IMG/VR virus record: IMGVR_UViG_3300050821_001247
Location: 1-43,659 of that record
Reading direction: 5' to 3' (one strand)
DNA from: a virus
DNA: 43,659 nucleotides
The position numbers were made by a program, and so were the translations under genes. Below, in pieces: positions 2,676 to 42,154 of the stretch; the stretch's first letter is position 1; the number at the start of each line of letters is the position of its first letter. Below the pieces are notes generated by a model. That model was not told the DNA's origin and ran no database searches. It saw nothing but the letters and a program-made list of their open reading frames with translations.

Positions 2676-3136
2676 TGATGATAAACCTCCTTTTCAATCC
2701 TCTGCCAACTGACGTTTAGTTTACTCATTAATTCCATGTTTCCTCCTCTATCGGGGTGAAGAACGAAACAGGCTGCCTTATAGGCCTTTTGAGCCGCTTC
2801 GTATGGGAGGAGTTTCATAAACTCCAACAAAGTTGTGTCGATTCCGGTTATCATTACCTGCGGATTTACGGACTGTTTCGACTGACCCTCGACGGCTTGA
2901 CGGTTTAGGACTGCTACCTCTTGAGCACCATAAACGAGTTTACAAAACTTGTCCACGCCGTCAAGGTACTTCTCGATAAAGGTCCACGTTTTGGTATTCT
3001 GGTCCCAACTTCTGTCGGAATGTGGGATGGCCTGTTTGAGAAAGGTTACGACCTTTTCAATTCGGTCAAAATCCGTTTTCATTTTAAGCTGGTAGGCTTG
3101 GATTTTGACATCCCAGTAGATCATTACTTTGGCCAT
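2672..3136 (-). CDS. J-domain-like protein (C-terminal HPD motif)
   Basis: The protein is 154 residues. Residues about 105-152 form a J-domain-like unit: a helix (PYEAAQKAYKAACFVL), then the diagnostic HPD tripeptide at 127-129 in LHPDRGGN, then a second helix ending NVSWQRIEKEV. J-domains stimulate the ATPase of Hsp70/DnaK and deliver clients to it. Here the J-domain is C-terminal rather than N-terminal. The first 100 residues have no recognised fold. ATG 3136 has GGAG seven bases upstream; an in-frame upstream start at 3169 has no comparable site. No phage DnaK is in the window, so the partner would be host DnaK (inference). Confidence 0.78.
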   Translation of the reverse strand: MAKVMIYWDVKIQAYQLKMKTDFDRIEKVVTFLKQAIPHSDRSWDQNTKTWTFIEKYLDGVDKFCKLVYGAQEVAVLNRQAVEGQSKQSVNPQVMITGIDTTLLEFMKLLPYEAAQKAYKAACFVLHPDRGGNMELMSKLNVSWQRIEKEVYHQ

Positions 3137-3138
3137 AG

Positions 3139-3724: not shown

Positions 3725-4213
3725 TTACGCAGTAGCGCCCGCGGCGGGATTCATTGCACGCAGAATCTCGGCAAGCGCTTCTGGAGTAACTTCAAAACCA
3801 GCCAACTTCGACAACGCACGAGCGGCCTTGGCTTCGGGCGAAGCCGTTTTACGCTCGGATACTGCGGCCGCAACGTCTGCGAGGTCGTAGATGCCTTCAA
3901 CTGGTGTGAAATTGTCGTTTGACATCAAATCGGTCTTGTGTTTCATTTGCTTGATTCGAAGAGACCGATTAATGATATTTGCTTGCTCGGTTTGATTCCC
4001 GACGAGTGAAGCCAAATCATCCAATGGACTCTCATCGGATACTTCGTGAACACCGAAGGTTTGAGTAAACTTCACCTCTCCTACAGCGCCCTTCTCAGTC
4101 AGTTCCGCAAGCTTGTCTTCGACGTTCGATTCATCTACTATGACGAAATCATGAACGTTCTCCTTCGTCACGTAGTCGATTCGGACGTATGTTTCATTAG
4201 CTAGCTTTGACAT
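3725..4213 (-). CDS. Unknown acidic protein, possible DNA- or protein-binding
   Basis: This 162-residue acidic protein has an Ala-rich, helical C-terminus (from about 115 on). No catalytic motif is seen. I chose ATG 4213 because AAGGAAGG precedes it; an in-frame ATG at 4276 adds 21 residues (MALFVSRVP...) but has no ribosome site. The gene is followed immediately by a strong hairpin and then a terminator, which suggests it is the last and perhaps abundantly expressed gene of the transcript that may start at the promoter near 5700. Confidence 0.65.
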   Translation of the reverse strand: MSKLANETYVRIDYVTKENVHDFVIVDESNVEDKLAELTEKGAVGEVKFTQTFGVHEVSDESPLDDLASLVGNQTEQANIINRSLRIKQMKHKTDLMSNDNFTPVEGIYDLADVAAAVSERKTASPEAKAARALSKLAGFEVTPEALAEILRAMNPAAGATA

Positions 4214-4282
4214 CTTTTTGTTACCTTCCTTTTTGAATTTAACTACAGTTGGAACCCTTGAAACGAATAATGCCATTTATGT

Positions 4283-4549
4283 TTATGAAGTTAACACTTC
4301 CGGATTATAATACTTTGCCCGTTCCTTACAGGCTACGGAATCGCAAGTGAAAGTTTCGATAAAACGGCCGTCTTCACGGTTGAAATGAGCGTATTCCTTA
4401 CATTCTATATTAGTGCATAGGAGGAATGTTGCCATAACCCTATATGGCTTATCCGGAAGGACCTCCGAAACGGTGCGACAAATGACCGGTTGCTTGCATT
4501 CATCGCAGCTACGCTCTTGGCGAGCGCAGTATTTGCAGGTTTTAATCAC
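4283..4549 (-). CDS. Cysteine-rich zinc-ribbon protein
   Basis: This 88-residue protein is dominated by metal-ligand pairs: CKYC, CDEC, CTNIEC and CDSVAC, enough for two zinc sites. It starts with GTG at 4549, which overlaps the TGA of the preceding 49-residue gene (GTGA). Function is unknown. Proteins like this in phage early regions often bind host RNA polymerase or nucleic acid, but nothing here proves that. It is one of four zinc-ribbon-like genes in a row between 4283 and 6135. Confidence 0.7.
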   Translation of the reverse strand: MIKTCKYCARQERSCDECKQPVICRTVSEVLPDKPYRVMATFLLCTNIECKEYAHFNREDGRFIETFTCDSVACKERAKYYNPEVLTS

Positions 4550-4695
4550 TTAATTTCCTCGATTGATTTAACTTCTATAGAGAAGCCCAAATCTTCCGCC
4601 TGAGGAATAACTTCGGCGTCGAGGAATTCCTTAAATCCATATTCCTGTTGATTCAAATCACTGTCTTCGACTTCTAAGATAATACGAACTTTCAT
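4546..4695 (-). CDS. Small acidic protein (49 aa)
   Basis: A 49-codon frame starts at ATG 4695 with GAGGT six bases upstream and ends in TGA overlapping the GTG of the next gene. The peptide (begins MKVRIILEVEDSDLNQQ) is acidic and looks like a small alpha/beta fold. No family is recognised. The good ribosome site and four-base overlap with its neighbour support it as real. Confidence 0.7.
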   Translation of the reverse strand: MKVRIILEVEDSDLNQQEYGFKEFLDAEVIPQAEDLGFSIEVKSIEEIK

Positions 4696-4699
4696 AAGT

Positions 4700-4822
4700 T
4701 TACCTCGCTTCGCGTAGCCGTTTTAACCTTAAGGTTATTTCCTCATGCCTTGGCATCCATCGTGGAAAGAAATGATTTATGATCCATTCTTTTAAGCGGA
4801 GCTTAATTCTTATTCGGATCAT
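4700..4822 (-). CDS. Candidate 40-residue basic amphipathic microprotein
   Basis: A 40-codon frame begins at ATG 4822, inside the last codons of the gene at 4803-5375, and ends at TAA 4700, within the ribosome site of the next gene. The product is very basic (begins MIRIRIKLRLKEWIINHF, ends LRLKRLREAR) with alternating Arg/Leu, so it could bind nucleic acid or membranes. The ribosome site is weak (AAAGAGA). It fills an otherwise empty 107-base gap and keeps the overlapping-gene pattern of the operon. It may equally be a chance frame. Confidence 0.45.
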   Translation of the reverse strand: MIRIRIKLRLKEWIINHFFPRWMPRHEEITLRLKRLREAR

Positions 4823-5375
4823 CGTTATCTCTTTGTTCGGAGCGCTTTTTCATCCCCTCGAAGAGGTCGTCGGAAGATATGGGAGGAACTAGTTGGCCTT
4901 CTTCGTTGAGAGTGAAGCCTTCCGGTATATCTCTGATATCTCTTTCAGTTCCAGTGGAATCTGATTGAGTAGATTGTTCAGACGTTTGTTTAACGTCCTT
5001 ACCGTTATTCCCAAGTTTTTCGCTATTCTCCTGCGCATCTGGGTCGATTGGTTCTTCGAGGATTCCTTTTTTGAATTCAATTGTACCTCCGTAGGAACGG
5101 ATAAAGCAAATGGCCTCATTTATTCTTTCAACAAACTTTTGTAGATCATCCTTTACCGGTATGATCTTGGCGATTGGCGGAGCGCAGCATTCTACTTCGT
5201 AGAATTTGGCTTTTAGCCAGCCATACTCAACGCCGCACTTGCGACAACGATAATACCGAACATCAATCTTTAGAATACCAGCCGCGGAGGTGGTCTTCTG
5301 AATTAATGGGTGTTTGCTAACAGACCCACATCCAGGGCAATGCTCACCCTCTCTATTACATGAGGAGCAAATCAT
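4803..5375 (-). CDS. Zinc-ribbon protein with disordered C-terminal tail
   Basis: This 190-residue protein begins with a zinc-binding N-terminus (CSSC, CPGC, then CRKC around residue 45-48), followed by a helix/strand section to about 115. The rest is low-complexity, acidic and Ser/Gln/Asp-rich, probably disordered. ATG 5375 overlaps the stop of the gene at 5372-5647. Two treble-clef or ribbon sites at the N-terminus suggest nucleic-acid or protein binding. No specific family was recognised. Confidence 0.7.
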   Translation of the reverse strand: MICSSCNREGEHCPGCGSVSKHPLIQKTTSAAGILKIDVRYYRCRKCGVEYGWLKAKFYEVECCAPPIAKIIPVKDDLQKFVERINEAICFIRSYGGTIEFKKGILEEPIDPDAQENSEKLGNNGKDVKQTSEQSTQSDSTGTERDIRDIPEGFTLNEEGQLVPPISSDDLFEGMKKRSEQRDNDDPNKN

Positions 5376-5647
5376 TTCGCCTCAATGCCATACCGCTTTT
5401 GAATATCTTCTATATTCTTACGCATCGCTGGGTCTCTCGGCAGGTTGGCTACGCGTCTATCATTGCCGTCGTCATAATAGTCCTTACCACAATTACGGCA
5501 ACGCCGACACATAATTTTCATCGGCTCGCCCGTCTCTTCATCCAAAACAACCTTCCCATCCTCCCCAACCTTCGTCTTTGCTCTTGACGGTACCGCGTAG
5601 GTATGTGTCGATCCGCATTCCGCCCGCGGACATCTCTTATTTATCAT
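5372..5647 (-). CDS. Small zinc-ribbon protein
   Basis: This 91-residue protein resembles an Ogr/Delta-like or generic zinc ribbon: CPRAEC near the N-terminus and CRRCRNCGKDYYDD at about residues 48-61, separated by a charged hairpin. The C-terminal 25 residues are basic and helical. It is the first gene after the predicted sigma70 promoter at 5676-5704, with an expected leader of about 20 bases. A role in transcription control is plausible but unproven. Confidence 0.7.
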   Translation of the reverse strand: MINKRCPRAECGSTHTYAVPSRAKTKVGEDGKVVLDEETGEPMKIMCRRCRNCGKDYYDDGNDRRVANLPRDPAMRKNIEDIQKRYGIEAK

Positions 5648-5675
5648 TCCGTTTAGCTCCCAACAACATTTAACG

Positions 5676-5704
5676 AGATTACAGCATCTCTAGGAGTTTG
5701 TCAA
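5676..5704 (-). promoter_or_regulatory. Sigma70-type promoter
   Basis: On the minus strand a perfect -35 TTGACA (5704-5699) is separated by exactly 17 bases from TAATCT (5681-5676), a good -10. Transcription would start near 5669, some 20 bases before ATG 5647. It would drive the run of small zinc-ribbon genes leftward to the terminator at 3571-3616. Confidence 0.7.
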
Positions 5705-5892
5705 GAGCTTTTATGTTGTTTGTTTTCAAGAGCTTGCGCGCTAGTTTTGAGACTGCGCACGCATAGAGAGTGACTGCTTGCTAAGTTGTTGATAAGACGA
5801 GCGATAGCTATTAGCGTCAGTCTTGTCACAGTCACATCTCTCACAAATATTAAAATAACTATACTGTGAGCTAACACTCGACGTGTGCGGTG
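5705..5892. other. Non-coding interval with direct repeat
   Basis: No convincing gene is seen between the promoter and the stop at 5893. A ten-base direct repeat TCAAGAGCTT occurs at 5701-5710 and 5732-5741, the first copy overlapping the -35 box, so it may be an operator. A GTCACAGTCAC repeat lies near 5826-5836. The interval is otherwise unassigned. Confidence 0.4.
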
Positions 5893-6135
5893 CTATCCAC
5901 GAGAGAGATAGACTTCGAAATTACGTTGACCGTCCGTTTTAGTCCGACGGCAAGCCTTGCAGGATTCGAAATATAACTTTTCGTGAAAGCAAACCAACCT
6001 TCGGTAGCCAACCGGAACGTAGAGCCGTTCGGCTTCGCCGTTAGAAGGTTCACGGATCGTAGATGGTGTAGGAAGAGCCTTGCTATCGCTGTTGGCCTTC
6101 TGCCGATAGACTTGTCTTAGGATATCTTTAGCCAT
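5893..6135 (-). CDS. Small protein with Cys/His cluster
   Basis: This 80-residue protein has a disordered Ser/Pro-rich middle and a C-terminal CFHEKLYFESCKAC segment that could bind zinc. ATG 6135 has GGAGG at ideal spacing; a longer in-frame start at 6165 is weaker. It overlaps the end of the 43-residue membrane protein gene. Function is unknown. Confidence 0.65.
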   Translation of the reverse strand: MAKDILRQVYRQKANSDSKALPTPSTIREPSNGEAERLYVPVGYRRLVCFHEKLYFESCKACRRTKTDGQRNFEVYLSRG

Positions 6136-6248
6136 ATATTCTCCTCCCTCCGAGATTGAAACCATTCAATTATAACGGTCTCAATAACGGCAATATATGG
6201 CAGCCAAGATAGCCAATGAAGGGTGTAAAACATCCAGGCTATCGCCAT
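6117..6248 (-). CDS. Small membrane protein (43 aa)
   Basis: A 43-residue product starts at ATG 6248 with AAGGAG four bases upstream. It contains one hydrophobic, Trp-rich segment (about residues 3-28) and a charged C-terminus (EWFQSRREEN). It overlaps the next gene start by 19 bases. An inner-membrane early protein of this size could affect host membrane or exclusion, but no homologue is recognised. Confidence 0.55.
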   Translation of the reverse strand: MAIAWMFYTLHWLSWLPYIAVIETVIIEWFQSRREENIWLKIS

Positions 6249-6316
6249 ATGACTCCTTTTTATCCATTCGCCCAGCGAATGCCTTCGGCAATTAAGCCTC
6301 AACATTCGCCTAGAGA

Positions 6317-6748
6317 TCATGCGACGCCAGAAGGGTTGGTCGCAGCCTCTAGCTGTTCATCGGTCAGTCCGTCTCCGTCGAGAATGGTCTCTTCCTCGGA
6401 TTCGACGGCCGAAGGCTCTGGCACTTGCATCCCAGCAAGACGCGCTATCTCCGAAGGATCAAGCGGCTTGCCAAGAATCGACTGTGTCCGAATATATTCT
6501 CGCACAGCCTTCCCAGAGTTCCTTAGTTCCTTGTTCTTGGCGGCCTGATTCCATCTCCGTTCGATGGTATCCTTGCCGACCGCGAGCATCTCCAAGACTA
6601 CTCCCGTAAGCGAAAGCTTCTGCCCTCGCAGAGCGTAGTCCTCTTGCAGCCGCATGACCGAGGTCATAACGGTTGAAGGGAGTTTAATCTCCGGAATAGG
6701 AACCTGTTTCCCAGACCGAGTCGTAAACAGTTCAACATTGTTCGCCAT
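6317..6748 (-). CDS. First leftward gene: unknown helical protein
   Basis: This 143-residue protein is mostly helical (ALRGQKLSLTGVVLEML and a basic stretch following) with an acidic C-terminal tail. It is the first gene of the leftward unit, next to the divergent control region, and has a clear GAGGTGA ribosome site. The central helix pair could be a DNA-binding or ribbon-helix-helix-like region, so a regulator is possible, but no fold is certain. Confidence 0.65.
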   Translation of the reverse strand: MANNVELFTTRSGKQVPIPEIKLPSTVMTSVMRLQEDYALRGQKLSLTGVVLEMLAVGKDTIERRWNQAAKNKELRNSGKAVREYIRTQSILGKPLDPSEIARLAGMQVPEPSAVESEEETILDGDGLTDEQLEAATNPSGVA

Positions 6749-9024: not shown

Positions 9025-9459
9025 ATGGCGATGAATGACTTATCAAAGGCTAGGTATCGGAGAGGTCAGGCTGTAAAGAGAAGAATTTATTATAAAGCTC
9101 TAAGAATTCTAGCCGTTAAGAAGCTTGGAGGTAAGTGTGCTAGATGTGGGTTTTCAGATTTTAGAGCATTACAGTTCGATCATATTCATGGAAAAGGGAC
9201 GATGGAATGGGAAGAGGTAGGAGCAATAAAGATTTTTCAGTTTATTCTATCCGATCCAAATTCTAGTGAAAAGTATCAGATACTTTGTGCTAATTGTAAT
9301 TGGATTAAGAAATCAGAGAATGATGAAGTAGATAGAATCTACCCACTTGACAACCCTAACTCAGCCGACTTCTTACTTAGCGACATTCAAGCCAGTATCG
9401 TTGACTGGGAAAAAGGGGGAGGAATTTCGGATCGCTCTAAGGATAAACTGCCTGGGTAG
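9025..9459 (+). CDS. HNH endonuclease, probably free-standing homing enzyme
   Basis: This 144-residue protein has the zinc-finger HNH layout: CARC at about residues 36-39, the H-x-x-G strand FDHIHGKG at 56-63, and CANCNWIKK at 92-100. Enzymes of this type cut DNA and spread their own genes. The conserved domain ends near residue 105; the last 40 residues read through the start of the terminase gene and are probably unconstrained. The gene is more A/T-rich than its flanks, consistent with recent transfer. It sits directly before the large terminase, a common target. An ATG at 9031 is an alternative start. Confidence 0.82.
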   Translation: MAMNDLSKARYRRGQAVKRRIYYKALRILAVKKLGGKCARCGFSDFRALQFDHIHGKGTMEWEEVGAIKIFQFILSDPNSSEKYQILCANCNWIKKSENDEVDRIYPLDNPNSADFLLSDIQASIVDWEKGGGISDRSKDKLPG

Positions 9460-35027: not shown

Positions 35028-35415
35028 CGTATTCCTCCGTCATTTTAACTATCTCATCTTCGTAAGTTTTCCAATCTATTCCCATCTCAGCAGCCAGAAT
35101 TCTCTCAACTCCAGTTGCGATGCAGTGCTCTCTTTTATATGGAGCTTTAGGATCATCTCCAGGCTCATCATCCCCCTTATAGTTTAGATCGAATTTATCT
35201 ACCGCCGACTCCGTTATTCCATTCGCTTGACAGAGAAAAACTTCGATAAGCTCGTGAATGGCTATTAGAATTGAACCCTTCGCTCCGGTTTTATTCATAT
35301 CACTAACTCTAATGCGAAGGCTATCAACCCCTTCCTCTTCTTTTAGCCATTGCCAGTCCCCAACGGTGTTATAACGCTGTTGATTATTTGGAATAATCTC
35401 GATTCTTATTTTCAC
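35011..35415 (-). CDS. HExxE-motif protein, possible zincin-like
   Basis: This 134-residue protein of a recurrent phage family has the motif AIHELIEVFLC near residues 52-62 and an EHC-x-A-x-x-VERILAAELG-like segment (around 100-115), where the H and E residues could bind metal. The HELIE pattern resembles, but is not identical to, the HExxH of metalloproteases. Start is GTG at 35415, overlapping the GroES-like stop (GTGA). Function is unknown; a minimal metallopeptidase is possible. Confidence 0.6.
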   Translation of the reverse strand: MKIRIEIIPNNQQRYNTVGDWQWLKEEEGVDSLRIRVSDMNKTGAKGSILIAIHELIEVFLCQANGITESAVDKFDLNYKGDDEPGDDPKAPYKREHCIATGVERILAAEMGIDWKTYEDEIVKMTEEYDERSR

Positions 35416-35843
35416 GTTCCCACCCCCACTCCGATGAATTCGGGTGCCTTTTCATCAATAATCGCAAGGATTTCGTCCTGTCCAAGGATTCGGAAGATAA
35501 TTCGAGTTTCCGGGTCCCAGCCTTTAAATTCCATTACGGTTCCGGAATAAAGACCGTAGCCAATTTTTTGACCAATCTTAAAGATTTCATCGACGCCTTT
35601 TCCAATTTCAAGAATCGTTCCAGTTGTTGGGCGTCTCTTTGAAACCTCTGGAATAATTAGACGACCCTCGTATCTAAAGGAATCTTCCTGAACTATAACT
35701 CGTCCACTTGTGGGGTGGACGAAGATGGTTTTAGAGGTAACCTTAACGAGTTTTTTTGGCTTCTCCTTAGAAGGAACGAAACTATCTACAATACTATCTG
35801 AGTCTCTCTTGCCTCTTTTATCTACTATATTTATTTCACTCAT
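35412..35843 (-). CDS. GroES-like co-chaperonin
   Basis: This 143-residue protein has a disordered N-terminal 35 residues and then a Cpn10 fold: GRVIVQED (47-54), a mobile-loop-like GRLIIPEVSKRRPTTG (60-75), GTILEIGKG (75-83) and the closing GQDEILAIID (121-130). In GroES the mobile loop carries the hydrophobic tripeptide that binds GroEL; here LII fits. Phage GroES-like proteins (T4 gp31 type) replace host GroES for capsid folding. No GroEL is seen, so it would use the host's. The ATG overlaps the previous stop. Confidence 0.8.
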   Translation of the reverse strand: MSEINIVDKRGKRDSDSIVDSFVPSKEKPKKLVKVTSKTIFVHPTSGRVIVQEDSFRYEGRLIIPEVSKRRPTTGTILEIGKGVDEIFKIGQKIGYGLYSGTVMEFKGWDPETRIIFRILGQDEILAIIDEKAPEFIGVGVGT

Positions 35844-37045
35844 GGTTTTCCTTTCCCTTTCGGGTCGAACTTTTCAACCGCCTTCCACATAACCTTACGA
35901 CCTTGTTGGTATTCTACGATTATATATGCTTCCTTCAAGGTTGCAAGAATTCGTTCGAGATCGTCGGAGGTTACGTCGCGCCAGTGGGCTTTTAAGATTT
36001 CATCCTTGGAAGCGAAGCCTTTCATTTCGATAAATTCTAAGACCTTATTTGTAGCGACGACCAGTTCACTTTCACCAACTCCTCGAAATACTCTGGGGAC
36101 GTTCTTAGCAACCGCTTCAACAGAATCCAACGCTCGCTGGAAGTCCGCTTTCGTGATAATAAGATCATCCCCGCGAGACGCAGATATACACATAGCAAGC
36201 TTCGACACTTGTGCCCATTTAGAAGTTTTATAACTCGTTGTCGCCATATCATCATAAAGCTTCGGTGACGAATCTGCATAAACTACCTCGAAGAGTGGGA
36301 TAACATCTGGACTAAATCTGAATTCTCCGGAGAGCTTAGCAATCTCCTGAAGGTCTCTAACGAGATTGTCTCGCACGTTACTGTGATTGGGCAAGGCTGG
36401 CCAGGGGATAAGTTTTTCGCGATCATATGCAACGACGAAATTAACTCGGCGAGTGAAACCTCCTCCAATTGCGCTAGGCGGTATGCTGCTAATAAGCCAC
36501 TCCTGAGTGGAACCTCCAAGGAGACAAACACACGGAGATTCGATTTTGAATTCTCCTTTTCCTCTCGTGCCATATATATACGCTCCTTCGTTAGCGTCCC
36601 ATAAATCTGTTAAAATCGGAAGAGTGAATTGTGAGGCAGTTACGAAAACCGAAAGTTCACGGCTTAAAATTAAACATGAATGATCAACTCCGACATTTAT
36701 TGATCCAACACTCGCGGAGCCAAAATGCGGCCATCCCTTCGAAAGACGTTCCAAAACATACTCAATCGTTACGCGATCGGAAACTAGATTGGCTGTTGCT
36801 GCATCACGTAATATACTTAACGCCGGATTTATGGCTGAACCCTTCCCAATCCCCGGTCTTGCGACCAGGACTGTAAAAAGATTCGGATATAATTTCCAGG
36901 AACCTCGTCCAATATAAACATGCCTTCGAAGCGTCGCCGAAATTACCGTTAAAGCTGACCATAGATGAAAATCTAAAGGCGATTCGCTTGCTGGCGTAGT
37001 GTACGTAACATAGGTTCCAAGCCAGTCCTTAAGTCTACGGGGCAT
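35840..37045 (-). CDS. DUF3987-like replication ATPase
   Basis: This 401-residue protein resembles DUF3987/YfjI-type primase-helicase ATPases. The region FTVLVARPGIGKGS (about 56-69) is the phosphate-binding loop, though the residue after GK is Gly then Ser rather than Ser/Thr directly. A Walker B-like LILSRELSVF is near 128-137, and ESPCVCLLGGSTQEWL and a FTRRVNFV arginine region follow. The C-terminal 80 residues look like a winged helix. It lies between the polymerase and the GroES-like gene and overlaps the polymerase by 73 bases. Probable replicative helicase or loader. Confidence 0.7.
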   Translation of the reverse strand: MPRRLKDWLGTYVTYTTPASESPLDFHLWSALTVISATLRRHVYIGRGSWKLYPNLFTVLVARPGIGKGSAINPALSILRDAATANLVSDRVTIEYVLERLSKGWPHFGSASVGSINVGVDHSCLILSRELSVFVTASQFTLPILTDLWDANEGAYIYGTRGKGEFKIESPCVCLLGGSTQEWLISSIPPSAIGGGFTRRVNFVVAYDREKLIPWPALPNHSNVRDNLVRDLQEIAKLSGEFRFSPDVIPLFEVVYADSSPKLYDDMATTSYKTSKWAQVSKLAMCISASRGDDLIITKADFQRALDSVEAVAKNVPRVFRGVGESELVVATNKVLEFIEMKGFASKDEILKAHWRDVTSDDLERILATLKEAYIIVEYQQGRKVMWKAVEKFDPKGKGKP

Positions 37046-38448
37046 TCGACCTCGTTCTTCAAATCGTATCCCATTTCGAATTCCACTGGAATTTTTATCG
37101 CGGTTCCATTTTCAAATTTTAATTCACGATCGAATGCCTTTCGTAAGAGTTCGATTGCTGTGATAATATCGGCTTGAGAATCCGGAACTTCCAATGTAAT
37201 TGCATCGTGGCCGTCCAAAAGGACCCAACCCGTATGAATCGTCTCACAGTATAATATCGCCAGCCCGGTGTTATCCCCGACTGTGGATTGTGGGATATAG
37301 GAATAGGCCTCTTTGAACAATTTTGAATTGTCTGCTCCAGGTCGGAGACCAAAGAAGTAACGCTCGCGTCCGATGGGAGTTTTAAGCGTTCGGGAATTTC
37401 TAAGATTAGTCTCAACCCCTCGTTGGAACGTATTTCTAATTTCTGGCTCGGCTTTGTGGAATTCATTTAATAAGACCTCGCAGTACGGAATAAGCTTCCC
37501 ATCCTTGGACATCTGCTCGACGGCGTCGGGGACCTCTTTAATTAGCGAAGTTGCCATCATTCCGGGGCCCTCACCGTAGTTTCCAGCGTGACGAGTTTTC
37601 TTTCCCATAAATCTCAACATCGTTCCTTTGGAACATTCGCTTAGAGGTTTTTTGAAGATTTCTGACGCGAGTTTGCGATGGCGATCGACTCTTTGAGTAA
37701 GCTCGTCAAGTCCTCTTGTTCCACCACCGTTATCAGCGATGAGTCCAGACACAATCCAGTCCTCAGCTTGAGCCTGGTCGCAGGAGACAAAGATTCTGCC
37801 AGGTCGAGCAACAAGGCATTCTCGAAAGCTTCTACCGAGTTCGGATTGTTTAGGTAAGTTTTGAGTATTTGTACCGATCTTTTTACCTGACGAAGATTGG
37901 AAAATAGTTGCCCCACTTGACCGTCTACCACTGACGGTACCGGATACGTTCCAGGAAGAATAGAGTATTCCATCGAGGAGCGCAGCTTCTGCATATGTTC
38001 CTTTAAGCTTGTTATATTCTCGGGCTTCGAGGATATTTCTGAGAATTTGATTTCCCGTTTTCGCGTATGCTTCATTTAAGGCGTCCTCACCCGAAGTAGG
38101 AAGGCCGGTCTCCCACTTCGTTTTTAGTTTTATTTTTAGATCGTTTGTTAAAATTTTAATGAGCTGTTGAGGCGAACTTAGGTTCAAAGTACCTGCTGGT
38201 GTCTTAACGCCTTTAGGCTGCTTTGGAACTACCTTCATCTTAACTTCGTTTTCGATCTTTTGGCAGCAAGCTTCGAGTTTAATATCCAACATCTTAACGA
38301 AGCTTTCCAAACGCGTAGCGTCAACCATAACGCCGCGACGATCTATTTCGTGAAATACCCGTGCCAAGGGCATCTCGTAGTTATGGTAGAAGCTATAAAG
38401 TGTATCGAAGATTGACATTTGGACGAAACTTCCCAGTTGAACCTTCAT
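36973..38448 (-). CDS. Family A DNA polymerase, polymerase domain only
   Basis: This 491-residue protein contains the palm and fingers of a Pol I-type enzyme: motif A SCDQAQAED (catalytic D224), motif B RFMGKKTRHAGNYGEG (279-294), and motif C GHDAITLEVP (H414, D415). The usual Glu after HD is Ala. The 3'-5' exonuclease is absent and is encoded by the gene at 38745-39947. The start could be ATG 38448 or the in-frame ATG 38418, which fits the family's N-terminal helix better; neither has a strong ribosome site. It is the phage replicase catalytic subunit. Confidence 0.92.
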   Translation of the reverse strand: MKVQLGSFVQMSIFDTLYSFYHNYEMPLARVFHEIDRRGVMVDATRLESFVKMLDIKLEACCQKIENEVKMKVVPKQPKGVKTPAGTLNLSSPQQLIKILTNDLKIKLKTKWETGLPTSGEDALNEAYAKTGNQILRNILEAREYNKLKGTYAEAALLDGILYSSWNVSGTVSGRRSSGATIFQSSSGKKIGTNTQNLPKQSELGRSFRECLVARPGRIFVSCDQAQAEDWIVSGLIADNGGGTRGLDELTQRVDRHRKLASEIFKKPLSECSKGTMLRFMGKKTRHAGNYGEGPGMMATSLIKEVPDAVEQMSKDGKLIPYCEVLLNEFHKAEPEIRNTFQRGVETNLRNSRTLKTPIGRERYFFGLRPGADNSKLFKEAYSYIPQSTVGDNTGLAILYCETIHTGWVLLDGHDAITLEVPDSQADIITAIELLRKAFDRELKFENGTAIKIPVEFEMGYDLKNEVECPVDLRTGLEPMLRTLRQQANRL

Positions 38449-38782
38449 TGACTACGTCGATTCGAAATTCCACAACCGTAACTGGAGTGTTAAGATTAAT
38501 ATCCGGATAGTATTTCTGCATCTTGTGGAGCATATCGAATATATTCTTAAAGCCGTCAAAGACGAAAATATCCAAAGGAACTGTGGAAAGAATGTAATGT
38601 TTATATCCGTTTACGACGGCATTATGACCATGGATGGTTATATTTCGAGCGAAGTGCCGATGACCTTTTCGGATGGTATACGTTTTACACCCGCTCATTA
38701 CTGTCGGTTTTATTCTTTCATCGAATTCGAGAATTTTCTCGACTTTAGATTCTGGAACTACTCGTAATTTTTCGTTCTTCAA
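38393..38782 (-). CDS. ASCH-domain-like protein
   Basis: This protein of 129 residues from TTG 38782 (139 from ATG 38812) contains an ASCH/PUA-like core: FDERIKPTVMSGCKTYTIRKG, followed by IHGHNAVVNGYKHYI and a final PVTVVEFRI strand. ASCH domains bind RNA or modified nucleotides. I prefer TTG because AGGAG is seven bases upstream. The gene overlaps both neighbours: the UDG-exonuclease end by about 38 bases and the polymerase start by 56. It thus sits exactly between the two halves of the replicase. Confidence 0.7.
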   Translation of the reverse strand: MKNEKLRVVPESKVEKILEFDERIKPTVMSGCKTYTIRKGHRHFARNITIHGHNAVVNGYKHYILSTVPLDIFVFDGFKNIFDMLHKMQKYYPDINLNTPVTVVEFRIDVVNEGSTGKFRPNVNLRYTL

Positions 38783-39947
38783 ATTCTTTCTCCTGTTCGA
38801 GATATATTTCATAGGTGCAAGCTGCGTCTAGAGCGTTGTAGTGCATTAATGATTCTAAACCTTCTCGGAGAGACCAGACTTTTCCTTCTTCTTTCCAATA
38901 AGGTTGGCGAGTATATTGCATTCCCTGGAATTCGAGTTTATGACGTAGTCCAGGCCAAAGAATATGATGACGAATAAGGGTATCATCCACAAGGTTGAGA
39001 TTAATATTGAAACCGAGAGCGCGTAGCCAATGACTGTCAAAAGAAGTGTAATTTTGTCCGATTTGTCGCTTTGTTTTGAAGATTTCATCCATTTTTCTCC
39101 AGAGAGAAGATAACTGTATGGGGCTGTAATTCCAAAATGACAGGGACATCGCGGTCCACGGATCTGAGGCGAAAGCGATAGTATACGGGACTTTCCGGCG
39201 TAGTAATTCGATGTCTACGGAAATAGAACTTTGTGAACCAATACAAAGCCTTAGGAAATCGTAAGCCTCTCCAAAGGAGGGATTTGTTATTAAAGTTCTC
39301 TTCGGTAGTGTATTTAGAGAATGGGAGTGATGCGTCCAGTAGGTAAGTTCCTCGAACGCTCTCTGCAAAATGAAAAGACATATTTCCCTCTCCGAATACT
39401 GTCTTAAAACGAAGGCAGGATGATACATTGGAATTACGTAGTGCGGCCAATCTAGGAGTGGACTTATTAAGAGACTTCCTCTCCAGGAGCCGAAACCTTC
39501 TTTATCCTCGTTATTTTTGCCTTTCTTTTTTGGCTTCGTTTCAGGACAGAGGAGATTAGTTGGAGTTTTACCGCATGCCACGATGATAGTAGGTTTATTA
39601 CTTCGTAACTCTTCAAAGAACTGGTCATGGAAAAGATTGATTCCAATTCCGAGTTCATAAATTCTTTTAATATCATTATCTGGAGGTCTGCTTTTGTACG
39701 GATTTGTGAACCAGATGTCGTTTTCATGAAATCCTACCTCCGAAAGCATTTGATCTAGTAGTTGACCGCTATATCCAACGAAAGGAAAACCTAATCGGTC
39801 TTCATCTTTTCCTGGAGCTTCTCCTACAATACAAACTGGCGCTCCGACGGGTCCACGAGTTCCGACGTATCGAAGATTCTTAGCCGCTAACGCGGAGCGT
39901 AAGATAGAATCAGAAGACCCGACTGTAGAGCTTACGAACGAATTCAA
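38745..39947 (-). CDS. Uracil-DNA glycosylase / 3'-5' exonuclease fusion
   Basis: This 400-residue protein has two parts. The N-terminus is a family 4-like uracil-DNA glycosylase: GEAPGKDEDRLGFPFVG (42-58), a VACGKTP strand (123-129) and HPAFVLR (176-182). The C-terminus is a DnaQ-like proofreading exonuclease: ExoI VDIE (D245, E247), ExoII NYTSFD (N299, D304) and ExoIII YNALD (Y370, D374). The N-terminal CxxC of iron-sulfur family 4 enzymes is missing. SPO1-type phage polymerases join UDG, exonuclease and polymerase in one chain, so this appears to be the detached front half. TTG start 39947 has GGAG seven bases upstream. Confidence 0.85.
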   Translation of the reverse strand: MNSFVSSTVGSSDSILRSALAAKNLRYVGTRGPVGAPVCIVGEAPGKDEDRLGFPFVGYSGQLLDQMLSEVGFHENDIWFTNPYKSRPPDNDIKRIYELGIGINLFHDQFFEELRSNKPTIIVACGKTPTNLLCPETKPKKKGKNNEDKEGFGSWRGSLLISPLLDWPHYVIPMYHPAFVLRQYSEREICLFILQRAFEELTYWTHHSHSLNTLPKRTLITNPSFGEAYDFLRLCIGSQSSISVDIELLRRKVPYTIAFASDPWTAMSLSFWNYSPIQLSSLWRKMDEIFKTKRQIGQNYTSFDSHWLRALGFNINLNLVDDTLIRHHILWPGLRHKLEFQGMQYTRQPYWKEEGKVWSLREGLESLMHYNALDAACTYEIYLEQEKEFEERKITSSSRI

Positions 39948-40277: not shown

Positions 40278-41393
40278 TTAATCTCCATTAATAAGCTTCT
40301 TCGCATCCTCCGAATTCATGACTCCACCAACATAAAGAAAGACTGCGCACTTCCGTCCTCCGAAGCCTCCAACTGTACTTGTACTACCTCTTCGTGGGCT
40401 AAAGGAACCTGAATCTTTAATCTGAATCCAATTTGGACTTCTTTGATTGGATCGGATGTAGGCCGGATGATTGGGATAATTATGAAGTCTCTTTCCCAAA
40501 GCCTTATAGGCCGAGCCGACGGCATCAAGCAGCACATATGCCAAACCGAGTCCTTGGAAGTCCGGAAGCGTAACCACTCGACTGACTCCCATAATATCGG
40601 TAACCCGTGGGTGAGGACGGGTAAGTAGTCCAGCGAAACAAGCAATCTTGCCGTCGCAAAAGAGTCCATAACATCTCGCCGCCTTATTTAAATCCTGACT
40701 CATATAGTGATATTTAGCGAATAACTCCCAAGCTTCATATCGGACCCGACGGATTTCAACTTGAATTTTTGGTCTTGATTGAAGCTCCCTCCATTGGAAG
40801 CGAAGAGGGTCACCGGGTTCTATTATCCAATCTGGTTGGAGCCAGTCGATTATGTCGTAATGACAAGAAGCAGCAACAAGCTTCTTGTCAGTCCTTCGGA
40901 CATACTTACTTACAGCGTAACTGGTAATTTGGGCCACTTGCCTGTCCACGACAGAGGTGAACTCGTCAATGAGTATTGGGTCATCTCCAGACTTATCTCC
41001 GGACAATAAACGTCTTGCCACCTCAACTCGGAACTTTTCACCGTTTGAAAGAACCTCGTACGGACGAAGCCAAGCTGGAATTGTATTAAAGCCGACCGAC
41101 TGGCAAACATCAGTGATAGACTCCATCGACGCATCTGGAAAGTCATCGACCACGGATTTATTTCCCCATGTGAGAGGGTCAGGTTTTCCGAAGAAGTTTT
41201 CCAGGATAAGAGTCTTACCACTCCCCGAAGGCCCAACGATGAGTCCAACATTCCATTTCCTTTCTTCCAAGGGAACTTCTCCGCTTAGACAAACGGATAG
41301 TTTATCTTCGATGGGAAGATCGAACATCGAACCGAGCATTTCGACCCGAAGGGTTTTTTCGATTTCGACCGTCTTCTCAATATTTATTTTCAT
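40278..41393 (-). CDS. ABC-ATPase fused to GNAT acetyltransferase (COG2401-like)
   Basis: This 371-residue protein joins an ABC-type ATPase without membrane segments to an acetyltransferase. The ATPase shows Walker A GPSGSGKT (54-61), signature LSNGE (115-119), Walker B ILIDE (140-144) and switch histidine SCH (178). The C-terminal part has a GNAT-like core with VSRVVTLPDFQGLGLAYVLL (270-289), where QGLGLA is the acetyl-CoA loop. This fusion is the COG2401 type. ATG 41393 overlaps the ParB stop (ATGA). The modified target is unknown; it may be a base or a protein. Confidence 0.85.
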   Translation of the reverse strand: MKINIEKTVEIEKTLRVEMLGSMFDLPIEDKLSVCLSGEVPLEERKWNVGLIVGPSGSGKTLILENFFGKPDPLTWGNKSVVDDFPDASMESITDVCQSVGFNTIPAWLRPYEVLSNGEKFRVEVARRLLSGDKSGDDPILIDEFTSVVDRQVAQITSYAVSKYVRRTDKKLVAASCHYDIIDWLQPDWIIEPGDPLRFQWRELQSRPKIQVEIRRVRYEAWELFAKYHYMSQDLNKAARCYGLFCDGKIACFAGLLTRPHPRVTDIMGVSRVVTLPDFQGLGLAYVLLDAVGSAYKALGKRLHNYPNHPAYIRSNQRSPNWIQIKDSGSFSPRRGSTSTVGGFGGRKCAVFLYVGGVMNSEDAKKLINGD

Positions 41394-42154
41394 GCCACCA
41401 CCGGTTGACACTTTAGTCCAACGGAACGAAATTGAATTAACAAAGTTCGTTGTTCCTCTTCGTCTTTACATTCAATTAAAATCTTGTATTGCAGAGGCGT
41501 GACTACTTGCGGTTTCTGAGTTCCGAGAGCAATTTTCATAGCAAGTTCGAGCCGTCGTTTAGCCTCTTCCTTAGTGGGAGCTTTTTGGAGTTCTGGAATC
41601 TTCGTTATTAATGCAGCCATTTCTAAGTCTTGGGAGGTGGAAGCTGCGGATTCGTTAAGCATTGCAGCGAGTTTATTGACCCCGAACCCGGGCTGACTAG
41701 AAGATTTTTCAGAAGTTGAGGGTCTACCAACGATTGGGGCTCCGTGGATTTCCTGCATAATTGTGAGGAGCTTCTGTTTGCCCAAAACTTGCTCTTGCCA
41801 CGAGAGATCTTTACGACGAATATTTTCTTCCATTTCGATCGAAGACGCGAGGAGCTTCTTTTTCGGGTCATTTGATTCAAGCTCCGATCTCCAGACGTAA
41901 TGAACGGCATGTTCGAGTTCGGTCAAGCCGAGGGATTTGAGAGCCGTTAGGCGGCGTTCGCCTGCGATGATCTTTACGATTGGACCAGCCGGTAGAATAG
42001 GTCCGTTGTCTACCCAATCGTGTGTTAATACGATTGGCTCGATTAACCCGTTTTCTTTAATACTATTCGCAAGACCCGGAATGTCTCCTAAATCTTTTCG
42101 GATACGGTTTAATATTTGGATATCTTCGATCTGGACTTTCTGCGGAATTTCCAT
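41390..42154 (-). CDS. parB: ParB-like protein
   Basis: This 254-residue protein has the ParB/Srx-type N-terminal domain: IPGLANSIKENGLIEPIVLT (24-43), IIAGERRLTALKSLG (62-76; GERR is the CTPase/nuclease signature) and EMEENIRRKDLSWQEQ. A helix-rich middle (about 130-200) may be the HTH-containing portion, and the C-terminal 50 residues form a small domain. ParB proteins bind DNA and CTP. It is coupled to the ABC/GNAT gene and has AAGGAG just after a long hairpin (42171-42231). No ParA is visible. Confidence 0.85.
   Translation of the reverse strand: MEIPQKVQIEDIQILNRIRKDLGDIPGLANSIKENGLIEPIVLTHDWVDNGPILPAGPIVKIIAGERRLTALKSLGLTELEHAVHYVWRSELESNDPKKKLLASSIEMEENIRRKDLSWQEQVLGKQKLLTIMQEIHGAPIVGRPSTSEKSSSQPGFGVNKLAAMLNESAASTSQDLEMAALITKIPELQKAPTKEEAKRRLELAMKIALGTQKPQVVTPLQYKILIECKDEEEQRTLLIQFRSVGLKCQPVVA

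Follow-up and report, generated by a model that had tools for sequence, protein, structure and literature searches.

A family A phage replicase encoded in two genes at the exonuclease/polymerase joint, with an ASCH gene in the gap

The replicase locus and its one-chain relatives

We analysed the replicase locus of a viral DNA stretch of 43,659 nucleotides (IMG/VR record IMGVR_UViG_3300050821_001247; the whole stretch is called the window), in which a UDG-exonuclease protein and a family A DNA polymerase are encoded by two separate genes, with a gene for an ASCH-domain protein lying between them (Table 1). The three genes are located on the minus strand in three different reading frames, and the ASCH gene overlaps both of its neighbours, just as an initial annotation of this sequence had described.

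Table 1. Features of the replicase locus (window positions)
Feature	Positions	Strand	Evidence or remark
UDG + 3'-5' exonuclease subunit, 400 amino acids, TTG start	38745-39947	-	Pfam UDG, PHROG_17
UDG domain (motifs GEAPG and HPA)	39390-39854	-	Pfam PF03167, residues 32-186
Family A DNA polymerase subunit, 491 amino acids	36973-38448	-	Pfam DNA_pol_A, PHROG_17, alignment of relatives
ASCH-domain protein, 129 amino acids	38393-38782	-	Pfam ASCH, predicted fold, excess of silent changes versus L001
Shine-Dalgarno-like AGGAG within the C-terminal exonuclease codons	38790-38794	-	7 nucleotides before the ASCH TTG
38-nucleotide overlap, 3' end of exonuclease gene with 5' end of ASCH gene	38745-38782	-	
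56-nucleotide overlap (26 from the conserved start 38418), 3' end of ASCH gene with 5' end of polymerase gene	38393-38448	-	
DUF3987/primase gene, downstream of the polymerase	35840-37045	-	PHROG_14296 (6.5e-48), synteny
ABC-ATPase/GNAT gene, upstream of UDG-exonuclease	40278-41411	-	Profile matches

The UDG-exonuclease protein was recognized by Pfam UDG with an E-value of 1.2e-21; its 3'-5' exonuclease domain gave a weak Pfam match (0.024), with the motifs DIE, QN..SFD, and YNALD being intact. The polymerase matched DNA_pol_A with an E-value of 4.8e-29. The GEAPG and HPA motifs of the UDG domain are kept across the clade of seven contigs to which the window belongs. Compared with the PHROG_17 (DNA polymerase) profile, the UDG-exonuclease protein covers positions 482-831 and the polymerase positions 836-1238, so that the halves tile one profile, and the UDG, exonuclease, and polymerase domains follow the order of PHROG_17 replicases. 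The profile searches thus bear out the proposal of the initial annotation that the two genes carry complementary domains. The polymerase frame has two candidate start codons, ATG 38448 and ATG 38418; the latter is conserved among the relatives, and translation probably starts there. Neither a second family A polymerase nor any family B polymerase was found in the window's record (other polymerase families were not searched for), leaving the exonuclease with one obvious partner, and on the same grounds we rejected the idea that it serves another polymerase.

SPO1-type phages had been named as the carriers of a one-chain form. One-chain UDG-exonuclease-polymerase relatives do exist, but those nearest to the window's replicase are environmental phages of ~40-50 kb, not SPO1. 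Contig L004 contains a single open reading frame (ORF) of 856 amino acids (positions 4018-6588) that spans both replicase parts and shares 48-49% identity with each half of the window's replicase. The same DUF3987/primase gene adjoins it, an arrangement found in split and fused relatives alike. L084 is fused too, with 884 amino acids, and six further fused contigs group with it. Alignment of both halves to the L004 protein revealed no residues lost at the joint: split exonucleases end with '...EFxER' and split polymerases begin with 'xxLxxFYxxYEMPL', L004 reading '...EFDER-PELRRFYEEYELPL'. Split polymerases have their start codon a few residues ahead of 'LxxFYxxYE', in a stretch that L004 runs through uninterrupted.

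In an AlphaFold2 model of the L004 protein (pLDDT 88, pTM 0.83) the joint corresponds to residue 380, between the last exonuclease helix (residues 349-379) and the first polymerase helix (residues 381-404), and comparison with Klenow (1kln) aligned 661 columns across exonuclease and polymerase with a TM score of 0.70 by target length. The joint, a recurrent split and insertion site, falls between two domains. We infer that the UDG-exonuclease and polymerase proteins probably dock into one enzyme, the most likely mode being a non-covalent one in the Klenow-like arrangement of the fused relatives; reassembly of this kind, which the initial annotation had envisaged, is the natural reading of a chain encoded in two parts.

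Frequency and history of the split

Pattern-based scans, including scans with primase and polymerase alignments, yielded 165 loci with both replicase parts after removal of exact repeats, a sample in which frequencies do not equal population frequencies and many contigs are fragments. The fused form, whose occurrence among relatives the initial annotation had made a matter for survey, was found in 62 of them. The remaining 103 loci are split, of which 70 are cut at the exonuclease/polymerase joint, 18 in the palm, and 11 in the exonuclease; the counts of 165 and 70 still include three re-fetched stretches (L096, L101, and L103). A scan of genome contigs gave one relative, L094, which is of the split form and located on a contig binned to a Sulfuriferula metagenome-assembled genome. 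A sequencing error or frameshift as the cause of the split was rejected, since this arrangement recurs in six other contigs and a selected gene lies between the halves.

A tree of 108 replicases, built as a quick tree and having some long branches, comprises 57 joint-split, 43 fused, and 8 otherwise split proteins. On the best version of this tree the joint-split label changes four times, with strongly supported branches alone forcing two changes. A careful tree of 29 replicases gave three to four changes across bootstrap trees, the order of some lineages being left unresolved by its strongly supported branches. A neighbour clade of 47 contigs is split throughout, and deeper relatives are mostly fused. 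Judged from these trees, the replicase has either been split several times independently or been re-fused in some lineages.

The six exonuclease positions that were checked, as well as the Asp of polymerase motif A, the Lys and Tyr of motif B, and the His-Asp of motif C, are identical in 57 of 57 joint-split replicases, as expected if the parts still work together. Along with the fused relatives and the lack of a rival family A or B polymerase, this upholds the initial view that one UDG-exonuclease-polymerase chain, of ancestral type, is encoded here as two proteins.

Two further observations were made in the survey. The palm splits are a second recurrent class, located close to the NLQNLP motif, around profile positions 177-180, and having varied gap lengths (18 loci, among them L134, L135, L142, L146, L152, L155, L161, L164, L168, L171, L175, L180, and L184). 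In the 47-contig neighbour clade (e.g. L229 and L245) the GEAPG and HPA motifs of the UDG-like domain are mostly lost, the exonuclease and polymerase residues being intact; this UDG domain is degenerate and possibly structural.

Occupants of the joint and the ASCH gene

In four contigs (L194, L204, L258, and L261) the gap is empty and the halves abut or overlap. The other gaps measure up to ~2 kb and hold one to six predicted small genes, which belong to more than 50 sequence families, most of them seen in one contig each (the gap ORFs were predicted mechanically, and some are not real). HNH endonucleases form the cargo family with the widest distribution, being present in nine contigs on separate branches of the tree: HNH_3 scored above the Pfam cut-off in six gaps (L007, L081, L198, L222, L260, and L263), marginally in L235, and weakly in gap genes of L249 and L247. 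ThyX occupies the gap of two contigs, L245 and L250. Within the window's clade an HNH gene is located between exonuclease and ASCH in L007 and L081. That of L007 is flanked by a 16-nucleotide direct repeat (14/16), and the close relative L082 has no HNH gene and a single copy of the repeat motif, so that either the gene arrived in L007 recently or L082 lost it cleanly.

The gene next to the exonuclease has a Shine-Dalgarno-like motif ahead of it in 45 of the 57 joint splits of the tree, and its start lies at or before the exonuclease stop in 33 (both counts are descriptive, without a null model). This pattern suggests an explanation for the easy tolerance of a split at this position: the last codons of the exonuclease gene would often supply the ribosome-binding site and the start for the gene that follows.

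Two gaps deserve separate mention. In L194 (5800-8374), and likewise in L195 and L196, there is an overlap between the two replicase ORFs, and that of the polymerase offers no ATG, GTG, or TTG in the vicinity of the joint; in L194 its translation would require ribosomes to slip by +1 at CCT TAG C or to start at ATT following GGAGG, and a programmed frameshift still making one chain is possible. The short gap of L075 (MW202554) holds an ORF (2878-3138) whose C-terminal end reads like the NrdR zinc-ribbon tail.

The ASCH gene of the window most likely starts at TTG 38782, as the initial annotation had it; the AGGAG motif upstream favours this codon, whereas the first ATG (38812) has no ribosome site. 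The window protein scored 15.5 bits against Pfam ASCH, below the cut-off of 21.2, which is reached by its clade members L006 (22.2) and L001 (21.2), and the top eight PDB matches of its structural model (pLDDT 70) are all ASCH proteins, including ZmASCH, or DUF984 proteins (probability 0.80-0.99, E 0.03-0.16).

The gene is present in seven of seven contigs of the clade and always in the replicase gap, so that no relative with ASCH at another place, which the initial annotation had named as telling against its view, was seen in this clade. Outside the clade 21 virus records were searched, some of which are fragments: ASCH was not found in G003, G008, G010, G011, and G012 with the Pfam family, the less sensitive query, and not in the sixteen records G013-G028 with the clade's own ASCH alignment, nor was it found elsewhere in the genomes of fused relatives among these records. 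Comparison of the window with L001 resulted in pN 0.07 and pS 0.79, a strong silent excess indicating purifying selection, and dN/dS is 0.12 for L007/L082. Between subclades the identity is 32-41% for ASCH and 58-67% for both replicase halves, i.e. ASCH diverges faster.

ASCH is a real, selected gene, predicted to be expressed from the replication operon, and the replicase would stay together without it. Its suggested role as linker or nucleotide sensor remained unsupported, as the same split occurs with an empty gap (L204, L258, and L261) or with dozens of unrelated genes in it, and as ASCH is confined to seven contigs and diverges faster than the halves. From these comparisons we conclude that ASCH is a functional resident rather than a structural linker of the replicase.

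By its fold the ASCH protein probably binds nucleic acid or modified nucleotides, and binding of bases or nucleotides is a plausible function in view of published operons of GNAT-EVE plus ASCH proteins, which are proposed to act on modified bases (PMC7641849). The ZmASCH ribonuclease and E. coli YqfB resemble the clade's proteins in fold and, for L006 and L001 at or above the cut-off, in Pfam match. The catalytic triad of YqfB is Lys21-Thr24-Glu74 (PMC9599836). In the seven ASCH proteins of the clade the Lys21 position reads K,K,R,K,K,I,K (R in L003, I in L081), the Thr24 position is S in L006, and Glu74 was not confidently mapped; further, the clade has no domain fusion. With the catalytic Lys replaced in two of seven proteins, N4-acetylcytidine amidohydrolase chemistry of the YqfB type was rejected, and N4-acetylcytidine deacetylation is unlikely as an activity shared with the GNAT gene. 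An apparent parallel in the unrelated Erythrobacter phage XM05, with ASCH near a split replicase, was also discarded, the adjoining 'DNA polymerase' being DUF4326.

Among the virus records searched the ABC-ATPase/GNAT gene occurs only in the seven with ASCH. In L007 (4206-5699), L081 (756-2249), and L082 (2377-3870) it is enlarged in frame by ~100-120 residues at around residue 255, and the inserted DNA also contains a long ORF in another frame (226-237 amino acids). A second HNH-like gene directly follows it, upstream of UDG-exonuclease, in L081 (2224-2580) and L082 (3860-4183). In the window a GroES-like co-chaperonin gene (35412-35843; Pfam Cpn10, 3.9e-7) belongs to the replication operon, and another HNH endonuclease gene (9025-9459) overlaps the start of the gene for the terminase large subunit.

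Interpretation and known systems

Taken together, we consider it likely that the locus represents a recurrent gene-in-pieces replicase, in which a UDG-exonuclease-polymerase chain is divided at the exonuclease/polymerase joint, the two proteins probably reassemble without a linker, and the joint serves as a cargo site, ASCH being the cargo of one clade. Three points weigh against this view. A purely passive passenger need not be kept in all seven contigs, as ASCH is; no HNH gene is found in the gap of the window and of four of its six clade mates, so that the split of this clade need not stem from an endonuclease insertion; and on strongly supported branches alone the fused relatives may descend by re-fusion from a split ancestor. 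The chances are about even for a wider version, in which the joint is a standing cargo dock, the replicase has repeatedly and perhaps reversibly become two subunits, and lineage-specific genes (ASCH, ThyX, HNH) ride between them, aided by the ribosome site in the last exonuclease codons.

How the split came about could also be read in the opposite direction, with the wider clade descending from a split ancestor and the fused L004 and L084 group resulting from later re-fusion. The uniformly split 47-contig clade, the mere two forced label changes, and the unresolved order in the careful subset tree agree with this history, whereas the best trees need four changes (three to four across bootstrap trees) and deeper relatives are mostly fused; we regard it as possible, though doubtful. 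That the gap is a self-splicing intron or an intein and the product ends up as a single chain is highly improbable. HNH-bearing introns do occur in DNA polymerase genes of phages (PMC2988022, PMC3428280), but Rfam gave no match, either at E<=1 for the window region or at gathering thresholds for eleven related loci, three genes in three frames exclude an intein, and several relatives have the exonuclease stop and the polymerase start at the same domain edge with a gap of about zero.

The remaining alternatives concern ASCH. In this clade alone it could take part in the split replicase as a functional accessory subunit, acting as linker, clamp-like factor, or nucleotide sensor. Its constant position between the halves in all seven contigs, its overlap with both genes in the window, the purifying selection, and its absence outside the clade in the records searched would fit, but other phages with the joint split have an empty gap or unrelated genes there, ASCH diverges much faster than both halves, and gene overlaps are ordinary in this operon, the polymerase and primase genes overlapping too. 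We hold such a subunit to be improbable. Rather less improbable, and compatible with the cargo-site interpretation, is a tentative nucleic-acid modification or anti-restriction function of ASCH and the nearby ABC-ATPase/GNAT gene, the gap merely being the landing place of ASCH. Both genes share the same seven virus records to the exclusion of the others searched, and the GNAT-EVE and ASCH operons cited above provide a precedent; on the other hand, the seven records form one clade, so that co-occurrence is a single phylogenetic observation, the window's GNAT protein is not a GNAT-EVE fusion, and the catalytic Lys of YqfB is not conserved.

Division of a phage enzyme has precedents. In the T4-type Aeromonas phages 25 and 44RR inserted DNA or endonuclease genes separate the two parts of the family B polymerase gp43, and the phage 25 halves 43A and 43B co-purify with polymerase activity (PMC2988022). 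The window resembles them in having a replicase gene in two with DNA or a gene in between; gp43, however, has no UDG domain, whereas the replicase described here belongs to family A, is cut between the exonuclease and polymerase domains, and occurs in many environmental lineages with diverse cargo. NrdA of phage Aeh1, divided by mobE insertion, works as two chains (PMC2988022) and is likewise an essential enzyme divided by an inserted gene, but it is a different enzyme with an endonuclease insert, the gap gene of the window being ASCH. The PHROG_17 replicases of Microcystis phage Mel-JY34, Desulfofustis phage LS06, and Pseudomonas phage PaBG, for the last of which the UDG domain on a family A polymerase has been described (PMC7412058), contain the same domains on one chain, in contrast to the two genes of the window; in Mel-JY34 and LS06 the DUF3987/primase gene adjoins the replicase as it does in the window. 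Endonuclease genes are also known beside essential phage replication genes, with changing neighbours and with HEG-islands at gene-exchange boundaries (PMC10448857). HNH genes adjoin essential replication genes with changing neighbours here as well, but the cargo interrupts an essential gene, always at the same domain boundary.

No report of a split UDG-exonuclease-polymerase replicase of family A was found in the literature searched, which covers few subscription journals; enzyme splitting is already known from gp43 and NrdA, and its scale in this polymerase family appears to be undescribed. With this finding, repeated gene insertion at a replicase joint is documented for environmental phages. 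It also points to a pitfall in annotation, as the exonuclease half has no palm domain and is easily missed as part of a polymerase. Finally, proofreading and synthesis in family A normally reside on one chain, and the clade that stably keeps them on two, with its fused kin, would offer natural pairs for studying the communication between exonuclease and polymerase sites that are not covalently linked.

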